From Pomacea canaliculata (Eukaryota; Mollusca; Gastropoda; Architaenioglossa; Ampullariidae): a stretch of DNA of 64,000 nt. The translations under genes were made by a program, and so were the position numbers. Shown here one piece after another: positions 1,213 to 25,227 of the stretch; position 1 is the stretch's first letter, and each line of letters starts with the position of its first letter. Below the pieces are notes generated by a model. The model was not told the DNA's origin. It was given only the letters and a program-made list of their open reading frames with translations, and searched no databases. The DNA lies in the NCBI RefSeq assembly GCF_003073045.1, contig NC_037593.1, positions 2,161,525-2,225,524 of the forward strand, in the 5' to 3' direction.

Positions 1213-1660
1213 TCACATCACCAGCTGACCTGGCGGTCGTCGTCGGGGCGGTAGTCGTTTTGAAGGTCTGGTGTCTACCCAACTCGCCCGCTTCTTTATG
1301 GAATGTAGCAAGTCTTGTGACAGGGGCTTACCCTGGTCTGCTAACATAACATGGGGATATCGTACACACATTTATCAACTGTCTCCTTCTCTCACCTTAA
1401 TTCTTTCTCTCTTCCTCGCGCACACATTCACACCTGACACACCAGACAATCATCAGCTCCACTGATACTAACGGTTACTCCGCTCGCCTGTGTATCTAGC
1501 AACAACCATTGTTGAGACAATAAATATATCGCATCTTACTCAACGTAAAAACGAGAAAAGAGCAGAAGAGAATCAAACACTGACCATCGCGAGTCGCTGC
1601 AGCAGCAGTCAGCTGACACAGCACCACCAGCACCGCTACAACCATCAGCACGTGTCGCAT
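1213..1660 (-). CDS. Secreted prepropeptide, subfamily 1, copy A
   Basis: Function unknown; predicted secreted peptide precursor of 66 aa from two coding exons. The signal exon is 1585-1660 (76 nt, 25 codons plus one base, signal MRHVLMVVAVLVVLCQLT then AAAATRD), ending at a GTCAGT donor. The last exon is 1213-1337, after a TTAGCAG acceptor; the phase-1 join restores one frame to a TGA. The mature part carries DLLHSIKKRA, a tribasic processing site, then a basic proline-rich tail (RPSKRLPPRRRPPG). The signal exon is preceded by an acceptor at about 1674, with an untranslated exon ending at 1927 (CAACG/GTGAGC). AATAAA on the minus strand lies at 963-968. The exon boundaries are my reading; the family match to copies B-D supports them. 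By known families, the layout resembles neuropeptide or proline-arginine-rich antimicrobial precursors. Confidence 0.7.
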
Positions 1661-1791
1661 GATGACGTGATATCTGACGGTGAGAGAAGACAGTCAACAG
1701 GTGTAACAGCAGGTGGGGGACCTACCTGGTGGCCACAACATCTTTCTTCACTCAACTTACAAACTCACAAAACTTATAAACGACTGATTTG

Positions 1792-1823
<32 letters not shown>

Positions 1824-2017
1824 CAAACAGCTAGACAAGAATACCACAAGCCACACGCCATCTCTAGCAAAACGTATTTTACGACAGTCGACTAAAACAA
1901 ATCATCAAATGTTACAAACAGCTCACCGTTGTCACTCCTGATGTACAATGACTCAGAGTCGAGACTCGTATATGAAATCTGCTTCACTGAGACACCAGTA
2001 CTTACAAATTTCTCCCA

Positions 2018-2023
2018 TTTATA
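2018..2023 (-). promoter_or_regulatory. TATA box of peptide gene A
   Basis: TATAAA on the minus strand, about 95 bp upstream of the first-exon donor at 1927. The same box, spacing and surrounding sequence recur in front of copies B, C and D. Confidence 0.7.
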
Positions 2024-2737
2024 TTCTACACGAAAGGCGAGGTGCACAGAGGTCAAGTGTCGATCAAACAACCTGGTAGCCGCTGATTTGCTGACGTACG
2101 ATGACCTTTGACTTGATTTTCCTTCCGTTCTGCGGCAGTATGGGATGGCAGGCGACTGAAAACAAAGAAGACTTTGTGCTCAGCATCAACAACTTCTCGG
2201 CCTTTACTGGGTTGCCGTGATTGTGACTATTGGAGGGTCGCATCCTGGTCCTCACTGGAGTTTTGACAGCCTCAGTCAGTTTTAGTCTACACCGGAAGTT
2301 GAAAGCCCAGTAGTTGAAACAGCGGCGTTCGAACCCCAGGTGTGCACTAGGCGGATCGGTACCCATGAACAACAGCGCAGTTCTTGTAGCCAGCCCAGGT
2401 GTGCATCAGGTATCTGCCACCTCACAGGGCCGATGAAGGGAAGGCGGTGAGAGGAGAGGACATGAGCACCTCCCTGACAAACATTCCCCAAGATGGTGGG
2501 ATCTGCAACTCCCCAAACCTGAATGACCTTTTCTGTTCGTCTTGACATAGAGGGGAGCATGGCGGTGGTCATAGTTAAACTCAGTGATATGTTTTGTGTC
2601 TAGGACTGGCAGTTCTGTGAGATACTAAAGATACTCGACACTTGATTATCTCACCATGTCAGGGGCGGTAAGTTAGAGACGACATTCCTAGTGATGGCGA
2701 TAGTGACAGGTAGTTCTTGTTAGAAATGATGATTTAT

Positions 2738-2867
2738 TGTTACTGGTCTTATAACAGTCTAGTAACAGTCTTGTAACAGTCTAGTAACAATATTGTAACA
2801 GTCTAGTAACAGTCTAGTAAGAGTCTGGTAACAGTCTAGTAACAGTCTAGTTACAGTCTTGTAACTG
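2738..2867. repeat. 11-bp minisatellite (AGTCTAGTAAC type)
   Basis: About eleven tandem units alternating AGTCTAGTAAC and AGTCTTGTAAC. It lies between blocks A and B. Confidence 0.85.
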
Positions 2868-3339
2868 TGTGCTGTGTGTCCGACAGACGGACCGGCGCGA
2901 GGGTTGATTACTACTTGTGACAGTGATTGTACTTATCCTTACACTCAGTGTACTTATTTCACATTATACACTTGGCTTTCTTGTTCTGTCCTCCCTTACA
3001 ACCTCAACAATCTTTTTTAAAGAAGTGAAAGACGACATCGCAATGAGCTGTGTTAAATACATGGTGTATATATAAATATACAATGATATCAATGAGAGCG
3101 AAAGTCGTGGCAGCGGTCACGTGATCATTCAACATCGTCAGGCGGCTTGTGTACAAGTGTAGTAGCAGCTGCAGGACCAGCTCCCGAGAGTTGTAATAAC
3201 TCGTTAACACCGGAACTTGTCGTGAGTGCCAGGGCAGTACAGCAGTGAGTGAGCCTCGGGGTGAGCTTCCACAACTTCTCAAAACCTTCCGGTTCATAGG
3301 ACCGCAGTTAGAGCGGCTCCCTCTCTACACGTCCGCGTG

Positions 3340-3340
3340 C

Positions 3341-3424
<84 letters not shown>
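3340..3424. repeat. (AGAC)n then (CA)n microsatellite
   Basis: About eleven AGAC units followed by about nineteen CA units, lying downstream of peptide gene B. Long open frames across this stretch are repeat artefacts. Confidence 0.95.
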
Positions 3425-3425
<1 letters not shown>

Positions 3426-3777
3426 GACTCACAGACACACACGCAGACAGACACACATACAGACACACATACACACAGACTCGCACAAAACATTATTCAG
3501 TTTTAACGTTTTATTTTTGTGAAATCAGCAGACTGCTAAAGACAATCACAGCAGCTGGAGGACACGTGACATCATGTTGTTTGCTTCAGTCCACGTCATC
3601 TCTCGTCCTGCCATCGTCTCAACACCGCCGACTGTCACATCAAACTGTTGTGTGCAAAGTCAAAGATAGAAACATCGCCAGCTGAACATTTGAAAAAGCT
3701 GTGAATGGAAATGGCGAGACAAAGCATAATTTCTTGTGGTGAAGAAGACATTTTTCAGTGGCGGTAGTAACTGTCTC

Positions 3778-4226
3778 TCACACCAGAATACGTTCCGGTC
3801 TTCGGGTCGATCGAGGCCGCGGTCGTCGTCGGGGCTCGTGTCGAAATGGGATTACCGGGCCGAGGTGCTGATCCATCGCTCGTTTCTTCAACGAATGCAG
3901 CAACCCTCCCTCCCCCTTAGCATCGATGTGAGCAGCAACAAGTGACTGGCCTGGGTCTGTCCACAGACACAGCGATGTGAGAGTTTGATGGAAAAACGAT
4001 TGTCTGCATAGTACAACTAAAGATACAACAACAAAACTAATCGTAAAATGACCAAGGTATCTAACAACAACCATTATTGAGACAATAAATATATCGTAGC
4101 TTCACTCAACTTAAAAACGAGAAAAGAGCAGAAGAGAATCAAACACTGACCATCGCGAGTCGCTGCAGCAGCAGTCAGCTGACACAGCACCACCAGCACC
4201 GCTACAACCATCAGCACGTGTCGCAT
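3778..4226 (-). CDS. Secreted prepropeptide, subfamily 1, copy B
   Basis: Predicted secreted precursor of 84 aa. The signal exon is 4151-4226 (76 nt) and codes the same 25 residues as copy A, ending at a GTCAGT donor. The last exon is 3778-3956, after a CTGTGGACAG acceptor, and the phase-1 join gives 255 nt in one frame. The propeptide contains GLLHSLKKRA; the part after KKR is strongly cationic (EPRRRPRPRSTRRPER) and ends ILV. The exon start at 4239 follows a pyrimidine-rich CACCGTCAG acceptor, leaving a 13-nt leader before the ATG. The untranslated exon ends at 4581 (GTGAGC donor). AATAAA lies at 3510-3515. Function is inferred only: secreted and probably cleaved by a furin or prohormone convertase at KKR; antimicrobial or signalling peptide are both open. 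Confidence 0.72.
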
Positions 4227-4673
4227 GATGACGTGATATCTGACGGTGAGAGACGACAGTCAACAGGTGTAACACCAGGTGTAGGACTAACCTAGTGGCC
4301 ACAACATCTTTCTTCATTCAACTTACAAACTCACAACAGAGAGACTAAAGGTAGGAACTGTAAACCGTGGCTTGGACTTCAATTAACATCCTTCTTTTGC
4401 TCCTCGCTTACCTCGCCAAGCTTTTAATTTATTATTTATCAACGACAGATTTGTCTCTCTCTCTCACACACAAACACCAAATAGCTAGACAAGAATACCA
4501 CAAGCCACACGCCATCTCTAGCAAAACGTATTTTACGACAGTCGACTAAAACAAATCATCAAATGTTACAAACAGCTCACCGTTGTCACTCCTGATGTAC
4601 AATGACTCAGAGTCGAGACTGGTAGTTGAAATCTGTTTCACTGAGACACACCAGTACTTACAATTTTCTCCAA

Positions 4674-4679
4674 TTTATA
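4674..4679 (-). promoter_or_regulatory. TATA box of peptide gene B
   Basis: TATAAA on the minus strand inside AGAATATAAATTGG, about 93 bp upstream of the first-exon donor at 4581. Its position matches the boxes of copies A, C and D. Confidence 0.7.
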
Positions 4680-4887
4680 TTCTGCACTAACGGCGAGGTG
4701 CACTGAGGTCGAGTGTCGATCATACAACCTCGTAGCCGCTGATTGGCTGACCTTTGACTTGATTTTCCTTCCGTTCTGCGGCAGTATGGGATGGCAGGCG
4801 ACTGAAAAAGAAAGAAGACTTTGTGCTCAACATCAACAACTTCTCGGTGTTTACTGGGCTGCCATTATTTTGACTTTTGTCCATTAT

Positions 4888-5015
4888 TTTCACTCACTCA
4901 CTCACTCACTCACTCACTCACTCACTCAGACTTTTTTATTTGTCACTGTCAGATTTGAACACACCACCTTTCAGTCTTCAGACCTCGTCGGTAGCCACCA
5001 GGCTATACAGCCGTT
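4888..5015 (-). repeat. tRNA-derived SINE-like insertion with (CTCA)n tail
   Basis: On the minus strand an A-box-like TAGCCTGGTGG (4995-5005) is followed by a B-box-like GTTCAAATC (4952-4960) at tRNA-like spacing, then a short A-rich stretch and a tail of about nine TGAG units (4892-4927). This is the layout of a tRNA-headed SINE. The insertion interrupts the right side of block B. The family is not identified. Confidence 0.5.
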
Positions 5016-5019
5016 ACCA

Positions 5020-7600
5020 ACAACGTGTCTAAACTTCGTGAAAAAGTCAAGTTCGCTGTTTACACCAATGAACAAGTCCGCTCAACCGACACGCACACGC
5101 CCCAGAACCGGTGACGTCATCGACAACGAGGCTGCTGTTAACGAAGATGACTAGTGCACGACGGACCACAAACACCCTGCTACTGTCCCCCTAGGTACCT
5201 CCAACTGCCAGGAACACACACGTCATACTCAATGGAGTGAACAAGATCGGACTGACAGACGACAACAAACCTACCCGATCCTCTCCCCTCCAGACATCAT
5301 TGTACGCGTGGTCAGAGTTGCCTGCCCCAGTCAATGGAGGACATCGAAAACGGACAACAGTACCCTACAAAGAACACCAACAAGAAATAAGTGACAAGAT
5401 GGCCCGGCCCTCCACAGTTCATGACAATTGCTATCCCATAATGTCGAGGACTTTGTGTGGACGGCAAGACACAAGCAAGACAAGGGAGAGAATAAGTTCC
5501 ACTGACCCAGTGACTACGCGACACGAGGTGTCCGTGCTAACGGTCACCAGGACACAGCACGGGACTCACCCGTGAAAATATTTCACATCTTCAACTGCGA
5601 CATCGAAGGTTTGCTCGTGAAAACACGATCCTGGCTTTGTACAAAGCATTAACGTGTTTGTTATTGTGTCTTACAGACATTGCTTGACGTCAGCAGTACA
5701 CTGCAATGTTTCTCTGACTTCCAACGATACTTCAGTCCTGCTTCGACACTTACATCGCAAGGAAGAGCTGCCGGCCGATATCCTTGTTTTAGTAAAAAAT
5801 GTATTTAATAAGTTTTTGCATAGACTGCAGTGTACGGTTGACAATTTGATTTTATTGCAATTTGACACCGAGTTTAACGAGACAAGTTCTGGACTTAAAC
5901 CCACAGGTGAAACGCAGGTTCGGAGACAGACCAGGAGGAGATCGATCCTCGCCCAGAACCGGATCCGCTGGGGTGTATGGTTGCGGCACTAGGAGACAAA
6001 GAAGACTAAAAAGATAAGTGGGTTTGTGTGTGTGTGTGCGTGCTGCTTCCACCATTTTGTAAGTCTATGATCATGTTGAAAGCACAGTTACATCTGGACT
6101 TACAGGTCTACCACAGAGACGTTAATATTCGAATACCACTTCTACCTACCGCAGCGTTCTCATGGCAACCTACTATTTCTACCTACGCATCTGGTTTTGT
6201 AACATCATTTCTCATCTCCATCTCTTCCCAGAAGCACATTTTCCCGAGTTCCTCGACCATCTCACCGGAACATGGAGATGAAGCTGAGTTTGTAAGGTGG
6301 CCAGTGACAAATCACTGTCATGTGACCCACAGCTTTCATGCTCGTTGACCAACGGTGACCTCGCCACCAGCTCTGTCCATTTTTCACGGTTCCTCAAAGC
6401 CCCATGGGGAGTTAATCACACCAGCGCTGTCCACACTTTCCATGTATCCTCCTCCCTGTATCTTTCCTTGTCTTCTGTCTTCTCTTCTCCACTTTCCTTA
6501 TTGTTTGGGCATCGTGGTGTTGATTCCCTCTCCGATTTAAAACAAATGATATCACAGATGGTTCGCCTCTTCGAAAGTGAGACGTTTGCGATTTGTTTGT
6601 GGCTGTCGAACCTTTGCAGTCAGATGTTCCGAAATGTTTGTAAAGGAGACATGCAGGACATATAAGTCACAGGGCAGAGACATTCATTTCGTCCTTTTCA
6701 GTTCGGAAAAGAATTACCAGCAGCTGATATAAATTACATCAAGCCTTATGAAACTGATATAAAGCCTTGTGGTTACTACTTCATAGCAGCTCTCAGTTAC
6801 ACGTTCGCTTGGCCCAGTGACAAGAAAAAGCTCTTCTAGGAGCCTAGAGCCAGTGAACCACTCACAGTTAGCCCACTCAATGTATCATCATCGTTATTTC
6901 CTCAGCTAGCAGTGTCATAATCCAATTACCGGAAATTGGTCATCAAGCCTTTATTGAAGCGAGACATTCGATGAGATAAAATCTGAGAGGAAGGGGAACT
7001 GCCAGGGTCGAGACTGGAACTGTTTTCCCGTCAGACAATATTTCAAAGTACAGCACCCTTTCCTTTCTTTAGCAACCAGTAGGTGAGACAAACACAAATG
7101 TTTAGCTTAGTCTCGGGATTTTTTCTAAACCAAGTATATTTGACGGCGCCATCGTTAGGACAACAAGGACAGGACTTTCTTTGAAGTTATAAGTTGTCGG
7201 TAGCCGTGAGATCAGATCCCGTCCCCAACACACCTTTTTTTTCCTTTTTTTTTTATTACCTTCTTTTCCGTACTCCCACCCGGCTAGCCTTTTATTTTTA
7301 CTGAAAAGAATGAGCAGGATGGAGAGTGGGGGTGGGGTGGGGAAGCAGAATCCTATCCACAGGCCACAAACCAGTGACCATATGCAGTAACTTCCAGAAC
7401 ACGAAGTCTACCCTTATTCTAAGGGGTGACTAATGCATTTACTTTTGCATTATCCTAACATAAAAATTCCATTTAAAATGAAAGAAAAACTGGATAAAAA
7501 TAAAAATACGTTAAATGAAACAATGTCAGTGACACTAACTCAGATGAAGTGATGATCCAGACATTTTAGAGTTGGCTAATATCGATGCAGTCTTGGCTTG
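5020..7600. other. Intergenic, no supported gene
   Basis: Several open frames of 60-120 codons occur on both strands, but none shows a recognisable domain, a conserved copy elsewhere in the window or a convincing splice pattern. I see only unique sequence with scattered short repeats. Confidence 0.5.
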
Positions 7601-7619
7601 CATCACATTAGAATGCTAC

Positions 7620-8350
7620 ATTTTGATTGCCCGAGGGTAGTCACGTGACCGTGGTGACGGCCTGGCGACCTACCCGGTCGTAAAATATGCGGCGTTCAAT
7701 CGGAGCGCCAGATGAGAAGGTGAAGAAATGGGTGATTTACCAGTCGACACACCACGTGACCTATCAGACGCGCGCGCAGCAATCAGCGGAAGGGGGTAGG
7801 GTTCGGTTACCAATTAGGTCGGGGAGTGCCGGCGATTAGCTGCCGAGCCTTGCACCTTGGCCCAGTGGGCGCGGGCGGGACCGCAAGTCAAACAAGTGTG
7901 CCGCGCGAGGACCGCGCCAGTGCACGTGCGACGCGTGACGACACGGTGCGCCTAATGAGGCGGTCAGCTCGTGCCGCGAGGGGCGCCCGTGCACCAGACC
8001 TGACGTCGGGCTGTTGTGCGGCGTCAAAAGTTGCAGCAGCTCGTCGAACGCCGCCGACCTCGGGTCCGAGTCCCCCGATGTACCACTCCCGTGCACCCAC
8101 CCAGCCTCAAACATCCTCAATAGCCTCCCCTGGCAAAAGAGAAGTGGTGCGCGGGAAAATGACACGCCGGAAGTGGCATGAAAGTGATGGCGCTTCACAC
8201 ACCAGTTGGCAATCACTGACTAGGTTACCGCAGCTTATTCTTCCATTGTCGGAGGAAACCAGCGAAGCAGTTTGCCCTCGCCCCCCGCTTCTGTCAGACT
8301 GTAGAGCGAGACCCACATCTGTGTGGCGCGCGTGCGAGAGAGAAAGAGAA
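7620..8350. other. GC- and CpG-rich island
   Basis: This stretch is clearly richer in G+C and CpG than its AT-rich surroundings, with runs such as GACGCGCGCGCAGC. It holds overlapping open frames on both strands (plus 7826-8374, minus 7836-8216), as expected by chance in GC-rich DNA. It could be a CpG-island promoter or first exon of a gene whose body I cannot trace. No TATA box, known domain or matching exon was found. Confidence 0.45.
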
Positions 8351-8399
8351 AAAGAGGAAAAGGATAATCTTTAAGGAGTGAATAAAACTTACATTGAGA

Positions 8400-9700
8400 A
8401 ACACCTCCAAGAAAAGACAAACGTATAGTTCAGAATAAACGCAAAAATAAAAACGGTATCTTGAGAGAATGTCGATGCCAGATATCAGATATCAGATATA
8501 AATTATAGCAAATTGTATTGAAACAGATTTTCAATGGTGAAGAAGACACGCTGGGGTCATTAGTGTCAAAGTGTCAAATGACACAGTAAATTATTTAACA
8601 CCTACATACAGCAAGGTACACGACAGTAAACCCGACATTATTGTGACTGTCTGTGGTAAAGTTTGTTTTAAATATACATTACTTTTTCATAAAATAAGTA
8701 AACTATAAGCTAAACTACATCGTCCTCGTCATGCTGTCATTTTAAAATTTGGACTGACATGTAGATGTAATTGTTACATATTTTTAAAAAGTTTGATTTT
8801 TGTCAGAGCTTTCTAGCATCAATGCTGTTTAAATTACAATTAGATAAGTTGATGTGTTTGGCAAAAATATGTCGGACTTCTTTATTATATTTTATGTGAG
8901 ATTATGTTTGCCACATTCCACAGCTGGTCCATGCACAAAAAAACAAATTCCAAATTTCCGAACCCACAGTCCGAACACTTCCACTGTCACAACACATCTT
9001 ATGTTCCTTCCGACCATTCAATTCCCTCTCCCCCTAAAAAAAATCTCCAGTTGAAAATGACACCAAGTCTCCACTTGAATATAACCACAAAGTTTTCCAC
9101 TTCTAGGTAACAAATATGTCCACTTGAAAGTAACACAAAAGTTTTCACTGACACCGATGCTCTTCCTGAAGTTATTTCTAATTCAGCTCTGGTTGGTGAG
9201 CCCGAGGCGGATACGATGAATAAGCCGAAGATCAACAACAACAAAGTGAGGAAAAAAACCCACAAAAACCTGGAGAAAAAAAGTCTTTAGCTAAATGCAA
9301 GTTCAAAACTCTAACTAACATTCTTCAAACATTAAACACACGCTCACCGAACAATCAACAAAGATACACACTCACCTCAACAGATACAAATCTGGTCAGG
9401 ATGTGGCCAGTCCAGTCAAGGCTAACTTCCAATTCTGTTCAGGACTTGTTAAATAACCACAATTCTGTTCAGCTTGTTAAATAACACAAATCTGGTCAGG
9501 ATGTGCACGTCCGGTCAGGACTACAACACCAAGTCGGTTCAAGACTTGTTGCAAACAAAACGTCTTGGACACACTGATGACACCGAGGAGACTGTTTACT
9601 TCTCCCCCCCCGTCAGGAAAACTCACACAACAACATCCCAAAACACTCAAACACTCTTTCCTTTGTTCTTCGAACAAAACAACCTATCAACACCAGTTGA
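8400..9700. other. Intergenic with degenerate short repeats
   Basis: AT-rich sequence without a supported gene. Between about 9040 and 9560, loosely repeated phrases appear (CCACTTGAA-type and AAATCTGGTCAGGATGTG-type units), suggesting a decayed tandem repeat. Confidence 0.4.
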
Positions 9701-9701
9701 T

Positions 9702-9733
<32 letters not shown>

Positions 9734-10045
9734 AGCCCGGCGCGGGAGGGATTTGGATCCCTGTTGTGGCGCGCACTCAGACAGTAATTGCTGTCTTTCA
9801 ACCTCCCCCTTCCAGTTACTTTTCCCTGTCTCCTACGTAGCTCAAAAAAAAAAAAATTAAAAAATATAGCGCAGCAGGTTTGTGACATACCTCATTTATT
9901 ATTACTTTCTTTGTTTAAACAGTTTCAAAAGCTTATCGAGCTCGCTTAACATCTTTCTCACTAACCCTTCCGGCCAAGAGCAATCCCCCCGTCTCCCATG
10001 TTACCTACTGGTCAGCTCTTCCAGTACCTCTATTACAAAATACAC

Positions 10046-10615
10046 TACCAAACATTATACCTAAAGAAGAAAACACCAAACCCCCGTGACAGCAACGATC
10101 AACATTCCAGCTCTGCACATATACACCTGCGCGCACACACCTATGCACACATGCGCTGCATTGGCACAGGCCACGCAGTCACACTCGGTCACACACCGTG
10201 GGTGACAGCGAGTGGGTGGGGGATGTTTTATGTTGGTCAAACGAAAACCGCCAAAGAAAAGCATTATGGGGGAGGGGGGAGGGAGACGACACTCGATGTA
10301 CCGATGTACTGTCCGGCTGCTTTCTTCACTCAGGCTTCAACACAGCCTGCAATTAGCATGGCAAACAAGACCAACGGACTGTCCTCGATCTGATCGTCAG
10401 AGGTGTTAGAACCTCCACTTGCCTCAGGGCCCGCTTTTGTGACGGTGATGACCGTCTCCTCTCTACGTTCCCCTACCTTTCTTCAGTTCTTTGCTCTTTG
10501 TGAGGAATTACGTCTCAATAATTGGGGGGGCAAAAGGATATTCCTGCCCCCCTGTATTTTCCTTGGGGGGGGGGGAGGCGGCTGCCCCCGCTGCCCCCCT
10601 GGTTCCTACGCCACT
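10046..10615 (+). mobile_element. Partial copy of the GTGGCGTAGG-ended DNA element
   Basis: The sequence matches parts of the element at 51158-52978: positions 10046-10199 correspond to its section starting at 51381, and 10200-10615 to its right end, finishing with GGTTCCTACGCCACTG. The middle (about 51535-52557) and the left end are missing. Its right end abuts block C at 10616 and probably removed the left margin of that block. Confidence 0.7.
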
Positions 10616-11380
10616 GAATCAGTGTACTTATTTCACATTATACACTTGGCCTTCTTGTTCTGTCCTCCCTTACAACCTCAACAATCTTTTTTAAATAAGT
10701 GAAAGACGACATCGTAATGAGCTGTGTTAAATACATGGTGTATATATACATATACAATGCTATCGATGAGAGCGAAAGTCGTGGCAGCGGTCACGTGAAT
10801 CATTCAACATCATCAGGCGGCTTGTGTACAAGTGTAGTAGCAGCTGCAGGACGCAGCTCCCGAGAGTTGATAATAACTCGTTAACACCCGGGAACTTGTC
10901 GTGAGTGCCAGGGCAGTACAGCAAGTGACGTGAGCCTCGGGGTGAGCTTCCACAACATTCTCAACCTTCCGGTTTCATAGGACGCAGTTAGAGCGGCTCC
11001 CTTCTCTACACGTCCGCGTGATCGACAGACAGACAGACAGACACACAGATAGAACAGACAGACACACACACCAAACACACACACACACAGAGACTCACAC
11101 AGGTACCTGCACAAAACATTTTTCAGTTTGAATGTTTTATTTTTGTGAAATCAGCAGACTGCTAAAGACAATCACAGCAGCTGGAGGACACGTGACATCA
11201 TGTTGTTTGCTTCAGTCCACGTCATCTCTCGTCCTGCCATCGTCTCAACACCACCGACTGTCACATCAAACTGTTGTGTGCAAAGTCAAAGATAGAAACA
11301 TCGCCAGCTGAACATTTGAAAAAGCTGTGAATGGAAATGGCGAGACAAAGCATAATTTCCTGTGGTGAAGAAGACATTTT

Positions 11381-11981
11381 TCAGTGGCGGTAGTAACTGT
11401 CTCTCACACCAGAATAGGTCCTCGTCTTTGGTCCCATCTCGGCTGCGGTCGTCGTCGTGGCATAAGTCGCGCTACTTCTACCGGGGCGCGGACGCTGGAA
11501 CACCGCTCGTTTCTTCAACGAATGCAGCAACCCTCCCTCCCCCTCAGCATCGATGTCGGCAGCAACAAGTGACTGGCCTGGGTCTGTCCACAGACAGCGA
11601 TGTGAGCATTTAATCGAAAAACGATTGTCTGCATAGTACAACTAAAGATACAACAACAAAACTAATCGTAAAATGTTCATAATTCATAGACTTTGAGACT
11701 CTCTCCCTCTCTCACCCTCAGTCTTTCCCTGTTTTACCTTTCATTCACACCTGCTGACACACCAGACAATCATCAGCTCCACTGATACTAACGGTAACTC
11801 TGGTGACCAAAGTATCTAACAACAACCATTATTGAGATAATAAAATATATCGTAGCTTCACTCAATTTAAAAACGAGAAAAGAGAAGAGGAGGGCAAACA
11901 CTGACCATCGCGAGTCGCTGCAGCAGCAGTCAGCTGACACAGCACCACCAGCACCGCTACAACCATCAGCACGTGTCGCAT
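11381..11981 (-). CDS. Secreted prepropeptide, subfamily 1, copy C (shifted C-terminus)
   Basis: Predicted 92-aa precursor. The signal exon is 11906-11981 (76 nt), coding the same 25 residues as copies A and B. The last exon is 11381-11583, after the same CTGTGGACAG acceptor as copy B; the total of 279 nt is in frame. The propeptide through GLLHSLKKRA is almost identical to copy B. After that, small length changes put the conserved CGACGACGACCGC tract in another frame, so it codes TTTT rather than RRR and the tail ends SGVRDSYYRH. The untranslated exon ends at 12242 and AATAAA lies at 11136-11141. Either this copy makes a different mature peptide or it is damaged; the long uninterrupted frame favours the first, weakly. 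Confidence 0.65.
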
Positions 11982-12334
11982 GATGACGTGATATCTGACG
12001 GTGAGAGACGACAGTCAACAGGTGTAACACCACAGAAGTAGGAACTACCTGGTGGCCACAACATCTTTCTTCACTCAACTTACAAACTCACAAAACTTAT
12101 AAACGATTTATTTGTCTCTCTCTCTCACACACAACCACCAAACAGCTAGATAAGAATACCACAAGCCACACGCCATCTCTAGCAAAACGTATTTTACGAC
12201 AGTCGACTAAAACAAATCATCAAATGTTACAAACAGCTCACCGTTGTCACTCCTGATGTACAATGACTCAGAGTCGAGACTCGTAGATGAAATCTGCTTC
12301 ACTGAGGCACACCAGTACTTACAAATTTCTCTCA

Positions 12335-12340
12335 TTTATA
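12335..12340 (-). promoter_or_regulatory. TATA box of peptide gene C
   Basis: TATAAA on the minus strand, 93 bp upstream of the GTGAGC donor that follows 12242. It sits at the same relative place as in copies A, B and D. Confidence 0.7.
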
Positions 12341-15082: not shown

Positions 15083-15084
<2 letters not shown>

Positions 15085-15929
15085 TCCCTGACAAATGATT
15101 AGTCGGTAATTTTTTACATTTTCTGTATTATTGGAGAAAACTTAAGGCAGCTTTAAGTGTAGATAAACAGTTTGGAAGTTTGGTCAAACACGTCCCTTCC
15201 CTGAGACATTTCCTATTTCACGCCAGACTTTATCCATAATCATCTGTCAGGCCTGCCTGTAAACGTTCTCCAGATTTGTGACCACCAGCAACTACCACTA
15301 CCAAACATACCACTACCAAACATCTCGCACTGTAACAGCCGCTGTGTAGCGACGACCACGTGATGTCGCGAGGAAAGTTGCGACTCGTTACATCGCGTCA
15401 TCAGACTAGGGGAACCGCCTTGAACATTGAGATCAGTCTTCCCCCGACCTCGTCAACAGTTCCAACGTCTGCTAGACAGAGATTTGGCTGTCAGTCGATC
15501 GAAATAACACAAAATATCGTCTAAGTAGTCATCTAGCGTCAATTATTGTCATTTGTAAGTCGGCAGACGTGGGTTAGTATCCCTGAAGTCACAGGAAGGA
15601 AACGTGCTTGGAGGGGGTTGACTATGTGTGGGTGTCGGGTGACAGGGTGTCCGCTGAAAACAAAGCACTTGCACTTGATCAGTGCATATCACGTTAGTCT
15701 ATTCTGATAGAAAAAAGTGATAGAGTCGGGGATGACACATTCATGTTATGAAGACGACCAATCGTCGAGACTTCCTAGAGTATCAGCTGTGTGATTATAA
15801 GACGAGAACGTTCTACCTCACTGACACATATCGTCAGTAAACGAAAGATCATTTCAAAGGTTATACAAGCATCTCAACGACTGATCGTAAACAGTCCCTC
15901 AGTCAAGAACATTAAGGATCTACGCAATA

Positions 15930-16985
15930 ATGTCAGGGTTAGAAGACAATTCAGACACTGAAAGTCTGACAATAGAAGGTACAGATGGCTATGACTATAA
16001 CTACTCTGGCGAGTATGATGACTATGCTGTCTACAGCACAGAGAGCTACTACATAGACAGAGTGGGCATCATACCCGTGGCATTGCTGGGTATCGTGGGT
16101 AACCTGGTGTCCCTCGTCGTGTGGAACTCACAGACCACGTACAACGCCACCATCTTGCTCTTCAAGTACCTGGCCGTGTGGGACACCGCATTCCTCGTGT
16201 CGGTTATCCCATTCATATTTCTGTATGAAGTCGATCCTTGGAGTATACCCGCCATAGTCCTCAACACTTTGTCCTTCCTTGCCAAGCTGGAGTCAGTGCA
16301 CACCACCCTGCTCATTACCTTCACCCGATGGCTGGCGGTGTACCGTCCTGTCCACGTGCACACCGGAAGTCTGTTAACACGACGTCACGTGGTGTTGGCC
16401 TGTTTGGTCGTCTTGGTCTGGTGCCTGGCGATCAGCGCCGTCTTCATGACCTTTAACCTGCTTCCAGAACCAACTGCAGAATGGGTATACGGGTGGACTG
16501 CCGTCCACATCGTGGGTCTGGCTGTCCCTATCCTTCCACTTATCGTCTTCAACGTCCTCCTGCTGATCAAGATTCGAACTCCGTTTTCTCCGACATCAAC
16601 AAAGTCAGAGCAGCAGCAGTCGAGCACGTGGGGCAGCACCCAGCGCCTGACGGTGGCCATCTTGTCCATGAGCGCCTTCAGTGTCGTGGCCTACACCATC
16701 GGCGAGACGACGACAGTCGTTTACTGGCTTGGACACTGGAGCGACGGCGGCGACCTCTTCATCACTCTTCAGTCTTCCTTCGAGCTGCTGCAGGTGGTCA
16801 ACTCCAGCGTCAACGTCGTCTTCTACTTTGCCTTTTCTCGCAATTTCCGCAGTTCCTCCACCAAGTGCTTCAACCGCTGGGTCCTGAGAGGCCGGGCAGT
16901 CAGCGCTGGACACCGAGGTCCTCACAGCGAAGACAAAGGCGACTCCTCCAGCAGCCGCACAGCGACTGAGACTGTGGCTCTGTGA
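15930..16985 (+). CDS. Class A (rhodopsin-like) GPCR 1
   Basis: Intact intronless receptor of 351 aa at the cell surface; ligand unknown. The extracellular N-terminus (1-44) is acidic and tyrosine-rich with a glycosylation site NYS at 24. Helices by hydropathy: TM1 45-66 (GNLVS), TM2 73-98 (LAVWD), TM3 107-132, TM4 153-175, TM5 190-214, TM6 240-262, TM7 279-302 (NSSVNVVFYF). Departures from the class: the DRY box reads TRW (132-134), NPxxY reads NSxxNVVFY, TM6 has no CWxP, and the paired cysteines of TM3 and extracellular loop 2 are absent (only C158, C165 and C313 exist). The tail is Ser-rich. Start chosen at the ATG giving an N-terminus like the two paralogs. Peptide-receptor-like or mollusc chemoreceptor-like are the best family guesses. 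The stop codon lies inside a short tandem repeat (16961-17063). Confidence 0.93.
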   Translation: MSGLEDNSDTESLTIEGTDGYDYNYSGEYDDYAVYSTESYYIDRVGIIPVALLGIVGNLVSLVVWNSQTTYNATILLFKYLAVWDTAFLVSVIPFIFLYEVDPWSIPAIVLNTLSFLAKLESVHTTLLITFTRWLAVYRPVHVHTGSLLTRRHVVLACLVVLVWCLAISAVFMTFNLLPEPTAEWVYGWTAVHIVGLAVPILPLIVFNVLLLIKIRTPFSPTSTKSEQQQSSTWGSTQRLTVAILSMSAFSVVAYTIGETTTVVYWLGHWSDGGDLFITLQSSFELLQVVNSSVNVVFYFAFSRNFRSSSTKCFNRWVLRGRAVSAGHRGPHSEDKGDSSSSRTATETVAL

Positions 16986-17063
16986 ACATGTTAGTGACTG
17001 AGACTGTGGCTCTGTGAACATGTTAGTGACTGAGTGACTGAGACTGTGGCTCTGTGAACATGT
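16961..17063 (+). repeat. 32-39-bp tandem repeat over the receptor stop codon
   Basis: Three units of the type GACTGAGACTGTGGCTCTG plus TGAACATGTTA. The first unit holds the last codons and TGA of GPCR1. The inverted paralog has the same feature at its 3' end (about 20345-20440). Confidence 0.85.
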
Positions 17064-17702
17064 TACAGCGACTGTCAGTTGTGACAGAACTGTATGTAGC
17101 CACAACAGCAACTTGGTCAACACCAGTGGCTCTGTAACAACACCTTTCTGGCTAGTTCTGTCTTGCCAGTACATGTCGGCCCCTGAGAAGATTGTTATTC
17201 AATATAATGAATGTAATATTGGAGTGTCATTTAAAGTTTGTTTTGTTGTCTCCTTACAGGCATTTTGTCATAGATTCGGTCACATGTAACCTACGTGTAG
17301 GTGATAGTCTATTATCTCGCAGTAATTATTAAATAAAAAATGTGATTTGATTTTATTTGTGTCAATGTTGTTATCTACAGCCACTAGTTCTGTTGTACAA
17401 GATCATCATGCAACCCCCGCTTCTATTACTATTACTATTTAACAATATTTATTAATGTTCTGCTCCACTTTGGTTGTAACAGGCTTTTCATTGTTGTTGA
17501 AAATATTTCATGTAAAGAGATGAGGAAAAATCGTTTCAAAATATAATCAGTTTGTACGGAAAGTTGTGACTGAAAGTAAAACTAAATTACGTTTCCTTCC
17601 AATTTTGCTTCCAGTTCCACCACAAAACTTTATTTTAGATGTTTGTGTCTGTGAAAAAGAGCGAAAGCTTAAAAGCAGTTTCGCCTACTTTCTATACTTC
17701 AT

Positions 17703-17776
17703 GGATAATAATGATAATAATGATAATAATGATAATAATGATAATAATGATAATAATGATAATAATGATAATAATT
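17703..17776. repeat. (GATAATAAT)n 9-bp tandem repeat
   Basis: About eight copies of a 9-bp unit, in the spacer between the inverted receptor arms. Confidence 0.9.
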
Positions 17777-18004
17777 GGATGTCTTTCACTTGCCACATCA
17801 AGCGAGGCAGTGCAAACATTCATAGAGTTCAAGTTTTCATTCATATTGCCAATCTTTGTGCTCATTACGGATTTCTGTTGTTTTAAAAAATCATATTACA
17901 TCCACTAAAAGGATTTCCTGTTTAGAGGCTGCCGTGAGTTCAGATCCATTATTATTTTCAATTGTTTTCTTTAGCGAAGGACTAACAAATATTTTCTGGT
18001 AATA

Positions 18005-18524
18005 CAGGTAGTCCTCGGGTTACGACGGTCTCGAGTTACGTCGTTTCGTGGTTACGACGCTCATTCCGACTTACGAGGTTTAGCGAAAGTAGATTCATCT
18101 GATAACAGTGCATCAAAGAAAAGGAAGGCCATCACCATGGAGGTGAAAGTGGATATCATAAGGCAGTCTGAGAAGGGGAAACAGCAACAGAAATTAGCAG
18201 GTCATTAGGACTTAGTCGTTCGACTGTCGCTACGATTATCAAGGAGAAAGATCGCATCCTTGAACACGTGACAGGATCTGCTCCTATGAAAGCGACAGTG
18301 ATAACAAAGCGTACTGTACTGAGCAATATTTTACTGTACTTATATTTATTGATAATGATGTAGGGTACTGTGTTAGGATAGGTGTTTGGATAGGCTAAGT
18401 GTTTGCAGTACTGTACTGTTATTATGGTACAGTACTGTATGAAAGTATGATCCGACTTACGTCGAAATTCGGTTTACGACGACGCGCTAAGAACGGATCC
18501 CCGTCGTAAGTCGAGGACTACCTG
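18005..18524 (+). mobile_element. Deleted pogo/Tigger-like DNA transposon
   Basis: Ends are imperfect inverted repeats (CAGGTAGTCCTCGGGTTACG and its counterpart) flanked by TA on both sides (18003-18004, 18525-18526), as expected of the Tc1/mariner-pogo superfamily. Inside, from 18138, are pieces of an N-terminal CENP-B-type helix-turn-helix: MEVKVDIIRQSEKGK, then a frame slip, then SRSLGLSRSTVATIIKEK. The catalytic region is missing, so the copy is non-autonomous. Confidence 0.85.
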
Positions 18525-19029
18525 TATATACTTTTTTACTTTGCTTGGGTGGTCGAGGGTTCATTTCGATATCACAACACTGAAGAAAGTTATGTAGTGA
18601 TCGTCAGAGTCATACAAGAGACAGGGTCATGCTATTCAGTCTCACTATAATAATATTACTATAATATAGTATATTATATTCACACTCCTACCCTGCTTGA
18701 CAATGGTGCGTGTCCACATGAAGGACGTCTGACATCCGCTCCAAGCACGAAGCAGGCAAGAGCTGAAGGCTTTCTCCAACCTCTTATTGTCGAGACAACA
18801 TAAATAAGTAAAAATTGTTTTTTTTTTTTTTTATTTCATGAAAATCACTTAAGATCTTTCAGAGACCATACGACTACAGCCTCCTACCTGAGTACCACTC
18901 ACCGCCTCTCACTGTGACAGAGAATACTCAGTCTCAAGGAGACTTCTCTTAGCGCCTGAGACAAGAACTGGACATGGACAACATTCAAGAACGGAAAGAT
19001 GAGCCACAGGGATGATGACTAATAGAAGA

Positions 19030-19315
19030 CAAATATAGAAACCTCAGAGAGGAACCAAATAACAAGGACAGACAGTATCGTGATTCTTCAGAGGAAGACG
19101 AGTATGGAAGTAACAATAAATGGAAAAAGTGAGAGTAGGTGTTGTAGAAGGACGAGCACTGTGTGGACTGTGATAGGAGTAGTGGTCAAGGAAGAGGTAT
19201 TTTTTTAGTCCACATTTAAAAGATGATTCCATGGTGGGAAGGTGGGGGATATGCAAGAGGAGAGAGTTCCATTGTTTTGCTGCTCAGTAACCAAACATCA
19301 CGTGACCGTTTGACC
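19030..19315 (-). mobile_element. LINE ORF2 C-terminal fragment
   Basis: On the minus strand the frame MESSFKCGLKKYLFLDHYSY aligns with SESFKRELNTHLFRKHHSY of the 33480-33910 copy, a C-terminal phrase common in LINE ORF2 proteins, followed by 3' UTR. It is an old, short 5'-truncated copy. Confidence 0.6.
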
Positions 19316-20099
19316 CTGTGACCCTGTGGACTGTGTTATTTGTACCACAATCAAAGTGTCCAAAGTGTGAGTTTTACGGCAATGAAAACACACCTCTTCC
19401 GGTGCAGTATGGAGTTCAGGGGCAGCTGTTAATTAAAAACCTTGTTTTGATAAATGAGCTTTATTTTCTGTATGAGTGACATGATATCAGCGTGACTGAC
19501 ATGGAGAATGAGATAGTGAAAGAGAAGTCGAGAATCTAAACAGTTGTTTTCAACGGTGTTTTCCCCAAGATAAAAACAATTAGGGAAGCACCAGTGAAAG
19601 CTAAAAGACAAGAAGATGTGAGCGGAGGAAGGAAGGAAGAGCGGTTTAAGAGAATAAAACCTTTTTTTGCATATGAACTGCAATCTGTTTTTCTCTTGAA
19701 AGCATTTGCTTTAGAGCATGGGAAACCATCTACAACTGAGAAAGTACTTATCTTCGTGCTTGTCCGTGTGTCCATGTACATTTTTATGTGTGTGTCTGCG
19801 TGTCTGTTTGCTTCTCAGTGTGTTTGTGTCCTCATGCCGGCGTCATTGTTTCTGTCTGTCTGTCTGTCTGTCTGTCTGCTATGTTTGTCTGTAGAAATCC
19901 TGTGTGAATATGAATGTATATATGACCATTCCTGTGCAGACCACTAAAACCCACATTACCCAGTAGGGGTTGTGGTGGGGATAGTAACAGTATTTGTGTA
20001 AAAGTAGTAGTAGCTGTAGATAACAACACTGACAGGAAGAAAATCAAATTATATTTACTATTTAATAATTAGTGCATAATAATAAGAATAATGACAAAA

Positions 20100-21863
20100 C
20101 TTACACGTTGGTTACATGTGACTGAATCAATGATAAAATACCTGTTAGAAGAAAAGCAAACAAAATTTGAGGGACACTCCAGTATTACATTCGTCAACTT
20201 GCACAACTAAGTTATCAGGGGTCGACATGTATTAACCAGACAGAACTTGCCAGGTAAGTGTTGTTACAGAGCCACTGGTGTTGACCAAGTCGCTGTTGTC
20301 GCTCCATACAGTTCTGTCACAACTGACAGTCGCTGTAGCATCAGTTCACAGAGCCACAGTCTCACTCACTAGCATCAGTTCACAGAGCCACAGTCTCAGT
20401 CACTAACATGTTCACAGAGCCACAGTCTCAGTCGCTGTGCGGCTGCTGGAGGAGTCGCCTTTGTCTTCGCTGTGAGGACCTCGGTGTCCAGCGCTGACTG
20501 CCCGACCTCTCAGGACCCAGCGGCTGAAGCACTTGGTGGAGGAACTGCGGAAATTGCGAGAAAAGGCAAAGTAGAAGACGACGTTGACGCTGGAGTTGAC
20601 CACCTGCAGCAGCCCGAAGGAAGACTGAAGAGTGATGAAGAGGTCGCCACCGTCGCTCCAGTGTCCAAGCCAGTGAACGACTGTCGTCGTCTCGCCGATG
20701 GTGTAGGCCACGACACTGAAGGCGCTCATGGACAAGATGGCCACCGTCAGGCGCTGGGTGCTGCCCCACGTGCTCGACTGCTGCTGCTCTGACTTTGTTG
20801 ATGTCGGAGAAAACGGAGTTCGAATCTTGATCAGCAGGAGGACGTTGAAGACGATAAGTGGAAGGACAGGGAAAGCCAGACCCACGATGTGGACGGCAGT
20901 CCACCCGTATACCCATTCTGCAGTTGGTTCTGGAAGCAGGTTAAAGGTCATAAAGACGGCGCTGATCGCCAGGCACCAGACCAAGACGACCAGACACGCC
21001 AACACCACGTGACGTAGTTTTAACAGACTTCCGGTGTGCACGTGGACAGGTCGGTACACCGCCAGCCATCGGGTGAAGGCAATGAGCAGGGTGGTGTGCA
21101 GTGACTCCAGCTTGGCAAGGAGCGAAAAAGTGTTGAGGACTATGGAGGGCTTGCTCCAAGGATTGACTTCATACACAAATATGAATGGGATAACCGACAC
21201 GAGGAATGCGGTGTCCCACACGGCCAGGTACTTGAAGAGCAAGATGGTGGCGTTGTACGTGGTCTGTGAGTTCCACACGGCGAGGGACACCAGGTTACCC
21301 ACGATACCCAGCAATGCCACGGGTATGATGCCCACTCTGTCTATGTAGTAGCTCTCCGCAGTAGAGAAGACATTGTCATAGGTATTGTCATAGCCATCTG
21401 TACCTTCCTTTGTCAGATTTTCATTCGCTGAACTCTCTTCTAACTCTGACATGATTGCGTAGATACTTGATGTTCTTAAAGAAAATGACAGCCAGGGTTC
21501 GTCACAGCCAGGCGTTGAAATGCTTGTCTGACTATTTCACTGATCTTTATTTTCTCAGAGTGTTTGTGTCAGCGAAGCAGGAATTTCTCTTTATGAATAC
21601 AACGCAGTTGCTGCTGTAGGAAGTTTCTCTGATTGGTCCTGGTCATGGCATGAAAACGTTATCTTCTTTAGTGTAAGTTACCCACGTGACACACACTGAG
21701 CAACGCACGAGCTCTGGCAGTGAACATCATGTCAAATACACATTTTCAACCCACACCAAGGAAGTCTCCTTTTTGTGATTTAAGCCGTTTTGGCCTTGGG
21801 TGAAACAGGAAATACTTCAGGGAAGTAAAGGATTTGACCAAACTTCAAAGCTGTTTATCTACA
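20100..21863 (-). repeat. Right arm of inverted receptor duplication
   Basis: Reverse-oriented match of 15158-17300, containing GPCR2. Homology extends into both flanks. Confidence 0.85.
20412..21452 (-). CDS. Class A (rhodopsin-like) GPCR 2
   Basis: Intact intronless receptor of 346 aa, the inverted paralog of the gene at 15930. Most differences fall in the N-terminus (here with NLT at residue 12 and lacking five residues of the acidic stretch) and in the first extracellular loop region (VNPWSKPSIVLNTFSLLAKL). From TM4 to the C-terminus the two proteins are nearly identical. It shows the same unusual features: TRW for DRY, NSxxN in TM7, no CWxP and no TM3/loop-2 cysteine pair. The start is the first ATG, aligned with the paralog. 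No breaks were seen, so both copies look functional. Confidence 0.93.
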   Translation of the reverse strand: MSELEESSANENLTKEGTDGYDNTYDNVFSTAESYYIDRVGIIPVALLGIVGNLVSLAVWNSQTTYNATILLFKYLAVWDTAFLVSVIPFIFVYEVNPWSKPSIVLNTFSLLAKLESLHTTLLIAFTRWLAVYRPVHVHTGSLLKLRHVVLACLVVLVWCLAISAVFMTFNLLPEPTAEWVYGWTAVHIVGLAFPVLPLIVFNVLLLIKIRTPFSPTSTKSEQQQSSTWGSTQRLTVAILSMSAFSVVAYTIGETTTVVHWLGHWSDGGDLFITLQSSFGLLQVVNSSVNVVFYFAFSRNFRSSSTKCFSRWVLRGRAVSAGHRGPHSEDKGDSSSSRTATETVAL

Positions 21864-21939
21864 GTTACAGAGACAGTACAAACTGTCCGTGCTGTGTTTT
21901 AATGTCTTTGTGACACCTGCCCTGATTATTTCTCTCAAC

Positions 21940-22170
21940 TGCTCTTCCTTTACATCCCAGCTACACAACTCCGCTCCTCGTCTGATGATCGTCTCCTTAC
22001 TCTTCTTGTCACCAGAACAACTCATGGCCACAGGATGTTTAGTTATTGTGCAGAGAAACATTGTCCATACCCGCCACCTACTAAGTAGTGAATCCTTTAC
22101 ACGTGCACTGAACACACACCTCTTCTGTAAACAGGACTCCTAACAACCTTTCCCATGAAGGTGTCGTCCA
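21940..22170 (+). mobile_element. LINE ORF2 C-terminal fragment
   Basis: The plus strand carries a decayed version of the LINE end seen at 33480-33910: GTTTAGTTATTGTGCAG, the CCATACCCGCCACCTAC phrase, ESFTRALNTHLFCK and AACCTTTCCCAT in the same order. It is 5'-truncated and lacks most of the 3' UTR. Confidence 0.6.
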
Positions 22171-22914
22171 CACCACTTCACTAAACGCCTACGGAAACGT
22201 CTTGCTGACATCAGTTGACCCGGCAGGCAAGCCAAGGATTTCCTTCAACCGATAAGTTTCTTTCCAACAATAAAAGAATAATAATACCGTAGATTGAATT
22301 TTGAGGACCAATTTTAGAATGTGCGTTCCAGTAGAACCAGAACACAGGAGTACATGACGGGACAGACACGAATGCTTCTAGTCGAATGTTATGCACTAAT
22401 ATGGATGATTTTGGAGAATTATGCCTACACGTGACCTTTAACCTAAGCTGATGGTAGACTTTTGGTTTAATAGTTGCTGTTGAAGAACGCCCCACACATA
22501 TACATGCATGCATAGAGTTGTATATTCATGTTTATTGTTGATTCTGATACACAGATATAAACAGACACAAAGCAGCGCATCCACACATTAATTCCTTGTT
22601 GATGCTGACCTCATCGTGGAGCCCGCTGCTTGAGTCAAGTCAGAGCTGGTGAGTTCTGCTCAGTTTATAAATGTGCTCAATCTGTCATGGACAACCCTAC
22701 ACGTTATAGAAGTGTACTCATGGGATACATCGGACTTGATTTGGAGTTCAGTACTGAAGGTGTGAAACAGATCCTGCTCGTCGATACAGCCTGTGGACAA
22801 CAGATGGATGGAAAGACTTCTTGGGACAGATACCAGAAAGCCAATGACTGTACAGAGGACACTCGCCACACTCGTAGGACACGAGAGGAACCCTGCTACC
22901 AACAGTCAAACGAC

Positions 22915-23133
22915 CGTTAGTTGGTTTGGTCATGTGACCCGGCACGACACCTTGTCCCTCAAGGTACCCTGAAGGGTGGTGGAAGCCGCGGCGGCCAGAA
23001 GAACTGGCTGATGAACGCGAAGGGCTGAAGTGGTTGTCCTGTACAGCACCTGCTGACCATCGCCAAGACAGGGGAGTGGCGGGCCCTGTCGGCTGCCATG
23101 TGTAGTCATGTGATCGCCAACGACCGGTAGCAG
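22915..23133 (+). mobile_element. LINE ORF2 fragment (endonuclease-RT C-terminus)
   Basis: Frame pieces WFGHVTRHDTLS, GTLKGGGSRGGQKNWLMNAK and LLTIAKTGEWRALSAA match in order the C-terminal GHV...RGRPK...W...REWR pattern of non-LTR retroelement polymerases. Frame changes separate the pieces, so it is dead. Confidence 0.7.
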
Positions 23134-24312
23134 TCTAGGGGCGAATAAAGGATGGAATTACATGAATTAAAGGAGATGTTGGATGTTGATGTCAAGGTAC
23201 AGTGGATGGGTGGACGGCTGTCTGCTCTGTTCCAGTTCATGGACAGCCGATAATATCGCGTCATCACAGTTTCACGTCATCCCACGTATGACGTCGCTCT
23301 CATTAACGGTTTCTTTGTGTTGGGGGCGTGGCCTCAGACACGTGGCTGTGTTGATGTCACGTGTCATTATATCTCCCACAGACGGACTCACGACAGTTGA
23401 GCGCTTGTGAAAGTGATTACAGTATCATTGCCCTCACTTCACATAACATTTTACACTTCTTTCACTCCCTCCCATCCATTTTCACACACATTGTTTTTTG
23501 AATGATTGAAACACGACAGGGTGTTGACATATCTGGAATAGATGATGTAAAGAATAAATGAATGAAAGATGAATCGGTGTGTTGAATGCGTGGCGTAAAT
23601 ATATAACGGATATAGATGGATGTGAATGAGCGGCTGCCAGTAGTCACGTGGTCATCCAAGATGGTCAGCGTGTTTGTGTGCTGCCTAGACTTTAGTTGCA
23701 AGGGACTTCTTCACGCCCATCATCAGGGCTCACTCACACCGGAAGTGGGTCACAAGTGCCAAGGAAACAGTCGTCATGTGACCATCAGAGGCGAGCGTCC
23801 CGCACTTCTGATTGTTCGAAACTTTGCGATTCATTGTGACAACAAGTTGACTCGACAACAGGACGCGTGTCCACCCCTCCTTACAACACACTCACACGTG
23901 CACACAGAAAAAAAGACACACACACACACACACAGAAACACACAATCACACACACGTGCGTGCAGTTATAAACACACACACACACACGCGCACGTACGTA
24001 TACACACTCTCACACACAAAATTATTCACCTTGCGCGCGTGTGTCAACTCTAGCGAAAGTTTGAGTGCAAGTGGAATAATTTTTATTTCAAATAAAATTC
24101 CCTTTGTTCAGTCCACAGAAGTCACTTTACTCGGTGATATTCTGAAGACCCCAGAGTATGTTTTAACTAATTTCAAATTAAACTTTAGTTTGTGACAACG
24201 CAAAGTCGGAATAGTACCAACTGCTGTCTTCTGAGAAAATATTTTGTGCAATGAAAGAAATATATTTATAATTTCTTCATGTAAAGAAGCAATTTCAGGG
24301 AGAGTAACTCTC

Positions 24313-24566
24313 TCACACCAGGGTAGGTCGTTGTCGTCGTCGCAGTCCCCGCAGCGGTCGTTGTGGTCGTCGTGGTGCAGGTCGCTGTTGTTGTATCACT
24401 GCGTCTATTCGGGGTGGAAGTCGTGCCTGGAGTACTTGTATTCCCCTCTTTGTCCTCCCGTGCCACAGCCCGTGTTCACCATTTGCCGCATTAACCAACG
24501 ATTCACTCGCGGCTGTCAACAACAACAACGACGACGACGACAACAACAACAACAACAACAACAACA

Positions 24567-24604
<38 letters not shown>

Positions 24605-25227
24605 GGGATTTGAGAAAATGATTGAATACACTTGTCACAGTATCTGTCATAGTCTCTAAAAATATGAAATAAATCGGATCAACTAACCTTTAATTATGGT
24701 GTATAAATAAAATAACATAAATATATAATTAACAGTATATATCTCTAAGTATATGCAAGTATTTAAACATTTCATGTATATATATACTTTTATTTTTTGA
24801 ACTTACTAACTTTTTAGGTTTGTTCATTAGTACAGAGATTGTCGATGTTAAAACACAATGATAACAAAGTATTTCAGAAATTAAAAATCGTGAATAAAAT
24901 AACGAGAAAACAAACGAGTCTCATGCAGACACATGCACATCCACACATATATAGACTTTTGAACTCTTTCTTTCTTCCTAATTCTCTCTTTTCTTCGTGC
25001 ACTCATACATTAACACACAAACAACCATGGATGCCACTCACACAACTAATGAAGTACAGAACGATATTATAACATATTAATATAATACACACATCGCAGC
25101 ATTCTCCGACCTTAACAACAGTGAGAACAACAGAGGAGGAAAGGCACATACCATCATCAGTCGCTGTGACAACGGCCAAGTGACACAGCACCACCAGCAC
25201 CGCCACAAGGACCACCAGGTGTCGCAT
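24313..25227 (-). CDS. Secreted prepropeptide, subfamily 1, copy D
   Basis: Predicted 91-aa precursor. The signal exon is 25152-25227 (again 76 nt) and codes MRHLVVLVAVLVVLCHLAVV then TATDD, ending at a GTATGT donor. The last exon is 24313-24512, after a TTGTTGACAG acceptor; 276 nt in frame. The propeptide aligns with copy B (SLV...GEHGLW), with TKR replacing KKR, then an Arg/Pro-rich tail (RPAPRRPQRPLRGLRRRQRP) ending TLV*, parallel to ILV* in copy B. The untranslated exon ends at 25634, the signal exon starts at 25240, and AATAAA lies at 24082-24087. The intron start carries the (AAC)n tract. Being divergent yet keeping exon length, phase, basic site and tail frame, D is the best evidence that the family is real and selected. 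Confidence 0.75.
24519..24604. repeat. (AAC)n microsatellite
   Basis: More than 25 AAC/ACG-type units just upstream of the last exon of peptide gene D, inside its intron. Confidence 0.9.

Follow-up and report, generated by a model that had tools for sequence, protein, structure and literature searches.

Proline-rich antimicrobial peptides (PrAMPs) are defined by a content of at least 25% Pro, a net charge of at least +1, antimicrobial activity, and an intracellular target, i.e., DnaK or the 70S ribosome (Box 1 in the excerpt of PMC7736402). According to the excerpted text of PMC11678341, transporters take them up into bacteria, where the target is either DnaK or the 70S ribosome; on the latter, class I peptides act at start codons and class II peptides at stop codons. 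Arasins from decapods, for example the spider crab Hyas araneus, combine a Pro/Arg-rich N-terminus with four C-terminal Cys residues that form two disulphides (PMC3543460, PMC11678341; excerpts). The myticalins and modiocalins of mussels are described, in the part of PMC5577615 available, as products of multigene families with a noncoding exon 1, an intron just before the ATG, a phase-1 intron 2, and a hypervariable cationic mature part, and as taxonomically restricted. The antibacterial activity of Cg-Prp from the oyster is given as very low in the excerpt of PMC11678341. Here we describe a 64,000-nucleotide stretch of the golden apple snail Pomacea canaliculata (C4:2161525-2225524, termed the window; coordinates of copies A to J are window positions) and in it four minus-strand loci, A, B, C, and D, which likely belong to a variable family of tandem genes for secreted peptides of host defence.

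A parallel in gene structure exists with the myticalins. As far as these are covered in the excerpt of PMC5577615, both families are multigene and taxonomically restricted, with a phase-1 intron and a hypervariable cationic mature part, and the noncoding exon 1 of the mussel genes and the intron ahead of the ATG would have counterparts in the snail. In contrast, the mature myticalin is encoded in exon 2 and followed by an anionic C-terminal extension, an arrangement found in none of the snail models, in which the last exon encodes the predicted mature part and nothing follows it in the precursor. Each of the four copies has a coding signal-peptide exon of 76 nucleotides (A 1660-1585, B 4226-4151, C 11981-11906, D 25227-25152) ending in phase 1 at a GT donor, and a last exon preceded by an acceptor AG (A 1337-1213, B 3956-3778, C 11583-11381, D 24512-24313). 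Spliced frames are open throughout and comprise, with the stop codon, 201, 255, 279, and 276 nucleotides for A, B, C, and D, respectively. The last exons contain the processing motifs LLHSIKKRA (A), LLHSLKKRA (B and C), and LWHGRTKRG (D), ahead of which the exon of A has a pro-region; an Arg/Pro-rich predicted mature part or tail follows in A, B, and D. The DNA of C also encodes an Arg/Pro tail, in a frame other than that of B. The signal exons of A and B, and of B and C, are identical (76/76), whereas D shares 59 of 76 positions with A and keeps the plan, i.e., phase 1, a TKR site, and the Arg/Pro tail. A TATAAA starts at 2023 (A), 4679 (B), 12340 (C), and 25733 (D), and an A(A/T)TAAA signal is situated 225-262 nucleotides past the stop in all four. 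Thus, what an earlier note on this DNA had reported about exon pairs, junctions, frames, promoter and polyadenylation elements, processing sites, and the divergent though conserved copy D was found in place, and its restriction of the Arg/Pro tail to A, B, and D holds apart from the shifted frame in C.

That note had described genes of two exons. Upstream of the ATG, all four copies share the TATA box, a donor ACAACG/GTGAGC, and an acceptor CCGTCAG, which directly precedes a 13-nucleotide leader before the ATG, and because these elements are conserved the genes probably possess a third, noncoding 5' exon, with an intron just before the start codon. With approximate starts, the putative first exons, all on the minus strand, extend over 1927-1993 in A (TATA 2018-2023, donor after 1927), 4581-4649 in B (TATA 4674-4679, donor after 4581), 12242-12310 in C (TATA 12335-12340, donor after 12242), and 25634-25703 in D (TATA 25728-25733, donor after 25634). 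Leader and signal-peptide exon together cover 1585-1673 (A), 4151-4239 (B), 11906-11994 (C), and 25152-25240 (D). In Markov shuffles, an open frame by itself arises with P of 0.06-0.18 per locus, so the frames alone are weak evidence for A-D. If the open frame must also come with a dibasic site and with a tail that at least equals the observed Arg/Pro richness, P is 0.0013 for A and 0.046 for C, and 0/4000 shuffles comply for B as well as for D.

The family is not limited to the four copies that had been noted. Within the region read, 255 kb at C4:2100001-2355000, further copies were located by a signal-peptide profile search and a DNA search, and 25 ATG-bearing signal exons exist between C4:2152580 and C4:2280020, i.e., over 127 kb. 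Phase 1 and a GT at the exon end are common to all 25. The signal of U is weak in the profile (12.3 bits), and this member was recognised via its last exon. A DNA search of the 440-Mb genome with the exon region of A gives eight matches, all inside this cluster. A last-exon model was obtained for 20 of the 25 signal exons. For 15 of the 25, a same-strand motif LxHxx[KR]R, picked after the loci had been inspected, is present no more than 1.2 kb downstream; 2000 random placements average 2.8 such cases and never exceed 11 of 25. Models of the National Center for Biotechnology Information (NCBI) provide what may be regarded as independent support for the predicted splicing: P0003 is identical to spliced P2 and bears the name "prophenin and tritrpticin precursor-like", and P0004 is identical to spliced E of the window. 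P0001 consists of the signal exon of C, its last exon, and an additional internal piece, and P0002 joins the last exon of P3 to P4 and differs at its end. A-D had been called hidden; no protein model for A, B, or D is among the protein-search matches, whereas C, like E, was already modelled.

Arasins are among the published peptides to which siblings of A-D bear a likeness. Their Pro/Arg-rich part is followed by CxC-x4-CxC (excerpts of PMC3543460, PMC11678341), and the same spacing is present in N, P1, P2, P5, R1, and U. In contrast to arasins, which belong to a different phylum, P1, P2, and P5 have Pro-rich sequence after the cysteines too, and A-D lack the cysteine motif. In the six frames of the region CxC-x4-CxC occurs 11 times, seven times in the family (in R2 out of frame) and four times elsewhere. 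When predicted mature parts were compared with eight published peptides, whose sequences were taken from the portions of PMC7736402 and PMC11678341 that give them, 300 composition-kept shuffles were used for each comparison, and in the 88 uncorrected comparisons less than one case is expected at p = 0.003. None of the 300 shuffles reaches the score of P2 or U with arasin 1, of S1 with Bac7, or of N with Cg-Prp; p is 0.003 for Q with drosocin and for B with Cg-Prp, and 0.007 for A with Cg-Prp. A, B, and N therefore resemble Cg-Prp above composition, although no signal-exon relative was found in this analysis. Bac7 is a mammalian and drosocin an insect peptide, and the end PIRV is common to Q and drosocin. 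The precursor type, however, is not common to the snail family and the linear PrAMPs Bac7, drosocin, and apidaecin (the latter two from insects), and A-D are poorer in Pro. For the arasin likeness, convergence is as likely as homology.

Composition points in the same direction for the siblings more than for A-D themselves. Charges of the predicted mature parts are +5 (A), +6 (B), +5 (C), and +10 (D), all at or above +1. Of 19 models, P1, P2, P3, P4, Q, S1, and S2 reach at least 25% Pro, for R2 a three-residue stub makes the value meaningless, and five (P2, P3, P4, Q, and S1) combine such a Pro content with the charge. S1 has 46% Pro, a charge of +7, and seven PRP motifs, Q has 30% Pro and a charge of +8, and in U, outside the 19-model set, 12 of 35 residues were counted by hand as Pro. 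The predicted mature parts of A, B, and D are cationic and Arg/Pro-rich, and the siblings outside the window are more telling for the PrAMP reading. An origin of the Arg/Pro tails from triplet repeats was ruled out, as the Pro codons in A, B, and D span all four synonyms. Cathelicidins are defined by a cathelin pro-domain. In spite of the prophenin-like name of P2, a Pfam search with 14 members gives no such family at E ≤ 1, and no paper pairing prophenin with Pomacea was found in the literature searched.

The mode of divergence separates signal exon and mature part. In the signal exon, P1, P2, and P4 show zero amino-acid change against a dS of 0.05-0.25, and P3-P4 a dN of 0.10. In contrast, mature-coding DNA diverges more than intron plus 3' untranslated region (UTR) in eight of nine pairs (p < 0.01, the pairs not being independent; the UTR of K aligns poorly), for example 0.314 vs 0.035 for B/C, where the frame of C differs, and 0.244 vs 0.074 for P2/P4. 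An alternative is that A-D, wholly or in part, represent decaying copies without a working peptide. Last-exon dN/dS ranges from 0.23 to 1.6 among family pairs, i.e., paralogues of one genome, and is near 1 in several of them; the tail of C lies off the frame of B, R2 ends just past its cleavage site with its cysteine stretch surviving out of frame, F lacks most of its signal exon, and the missing models for A, B, and D fit as well. However, A, B, D, and the member Lx retain splice sites, frames, TATA box, and polyadenylation signal, and between the last exons of A and Lx there are five nonsynonymous and no synonymous differences without a frame break, so that we consider decay unlikely.

A constant signal exon, a variable mature part, and tandem copies are common to defence, venom, and reproductive peptides. 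The family might therefore encode other fast-changing secreted peptides, for example reproductive ones of seminal fluid or egg mass, or pheromones, and its architecture fits these equally. It is the resemblance of P2, U, S1, N, Q, and B to published antimicrobial peptides beyond composition that speaks against this explanation, together with the NCBI name of P2, which is a name only, and we regard it, like decay, as having a small chance of being correct.

Neuropeptides or peptide hormones had also been proposed for these loci, and signal peptide and dibasic sites do fit neuropeptide precursors. Their receptors might even be at hand, since three intronless genes for G protein-coupled receptors (GPCRs) of the rhodopsin/Srw type are situated between the peptide genes of the window, at 15891-16985 (+), 20412-21536 (-), and 34042-35094 (-), and nine GPCR matches (eight genes) occur in C4:2115609-2231023. 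A terminal Gly is the amidation signal that defines amidated neuropeptide precursors; it is present in just one of the 20 models (R1), and each precursor would release one variable product. Protein-database searches, one of which scored the 7980 candidates sharing most words, identify no relative beyond Pomacea except the short-contig matches P0005 and P0006. Larger paralogue clusters of the GPCRs on C10 (1.21-1.31 Mb) and C2 (3.01-3.06 Mb) are without a signal exon in the 60 kb sampled of about 143 kb. The proposal of the earlier note is thereby weakened, and a neuropeptide or hormone function seems improbable, more so than the two preceding alternatives. A general co-cluster of ligands and receptors was rejected, the best signal in the same C10/C2 sample having 8.3 bits and an E of 0.23. 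The GPCR genes possibly constitute a chemoreceptor array; a sequence search of the Protein Data Bank (PDB) with the GPCR gives no match at E ≤ 0.001.

Several observations weigh against the host-defence reading. All of A-D (21%, 18%, 7%, and 16% Pro, respectively) stay below the 25% cut-off, as formulated in the excerpt of PMC7736402, and D shows no resemblance to any of the eight published peptides, its best p being 0.083. Acidic mature parts are predicted for E (-7) and K (-3), P1, P5, S2, and truncated R2 have a net charge of 0, and the models of E, N, O, S1, and S2 contain no dibasic site. For S1/S2 the mature-coding part is not accelerated (p = 0.4), and the last exon of the P and B/C pairs has a dS that is likewise higher than the divergence of the intron, so that gene conversion of flanking sequence may contribute to the contrast described above. 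Pro-rich open stretches without a signal exon occur elsewhere in the region, too. Upstream NF-kB-like sites are not enriched (one found vs 0.86 expected), and among 14 members no Pfam family is matched at E ≤ 0.01, with no value below E 0.03. Secretion, dibasic processing, and a cationic Arg/Pro product, as proposed for A-D by the earlier note, are consistent with the sequences except for the tail frame of C, and its comparison with proline-rich antimicrobial peptides, which the low Pro content of A, B, and D does not favour, is backed by siblings outside the window.

If A-D belong to a host-defence family, a gene would begin with a noncoding 5' exon, followed by the signal-peptide exon with its phase-1 end; the last exon would supply pro-region and mature peptide, usually with a dibasic site of the LxHxxKR type ahead of the latter. 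Transcription of A-D would yield precursors that enter the secretory pathway, where cleavage at the dibasic site would free a cationic Arg/Pro peptide, in some siblings one with CxC-x4-CxC. The freed peptide would act on bacteria, by analogy with PrAMPs through entry into the cell and a block of the ribosome or of DnaK, or alternatively through membrane damage, as with myticalins, which permeabilise membranes (excerpt of PMC11678341). The PIRV end of Q and the Bac7-like PRP repeats of S1 are only suggestive of an intracellular target; with them, the two ribosomal modes become testable.

Conotoxin superfamilies diversify in a comparable manner to what might have happened here. One signal-exon platform, with a phase-1 intron and a hypervariable last exon, may have given rise in a single snail to look-alikes of three PrAMP types for which mammals, insects, and crustaceans are the known sources, i.e., Bac7-like S1, drosocin-like Q, and arasin-like N, P1, P2, P5, R1, and U, a proposal that we make tentatively and with some doubt. 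If it is true, the chemistries of class I, class II, and cysteine-capped PrAMPs arose convergently inside one cluster. Peptides of the PrAMP kind are already known, whereas the searches made here did not turn up this gene platform or the range of PrAMP styles that it covers. PrAMPs of gastropods are not wholly new, because cationic peptides from Rapana venosa haemolymph, with two or three Pro in a penaeidin-like N-terminal region, have been called PrAMPs (excerpt of PMC11678341). In ampullariids, Pom-1 and Pom-2 from Pomacea poeyana, predicted to be helical, not proline-rich, and described as fragments of bacterial and moth peptides in the portion of PMC7690686 available, are the single antimicrobial report known to a 2022 review, as excerpted (PMC9178244). 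Against this one report, the cluster would, if the host-defence reading is true, add about 25 candidate defence-peptide genes in an invasive snail, bring several PrAMP architectures together in one genome, and permit a direct test of whether peptides of class I, class II, and the arasin-like type can arise from a common precursor platform.

The window holds ten members or relics, A-E, the deleted copy F, and G, H, I, and J. E is encoded on the plus strand, with a signal-peptide exon at 30399-30474 (phase 1) and a last exon at 31402-31628 that contains acidic Pro-containing repeats and ends in PRPVLAAV, an end resembling the PRPVLV of S1 despite the acidic repeats in place of a cationic tail. 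F, at 63152-63181 (+), is a relic copy of E with its signal exon mostly deleted. The signal-peptide exons of G (40831-40912), H (49524-49605), I (56995-57076), and J (61696-61777), all on the minus strand and in phase 1, lie in near-identical tandem units, and a fifth such exon, M, is found at C4:2234619; the best candidate last exon is open in all five, copies that are too similar to judge. Outside the window, S1 (L020, C4:2265604-2266227, +) and S2 (L021, C4:2275000-2275923, +) have RPVPIPNPWPLPRP-type internal repeats and differ in their number. A PDB sequence search with the peptide profile gives no match at E ≤ 1, and Rfam none at the gathering score. P0005 and P0006, on contigs of 1249 and 1716 bases, match the signal exons of N and Q with read-through into the intron, and P0006 has a Trp where this genome has a stop, so that it stems from another allele or a related species. 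Fragments of hAT transposases (Pfam Dimer_Tnp_hAT) are situated in the window at 39200-39853 (+) and 44474-45562 (-).

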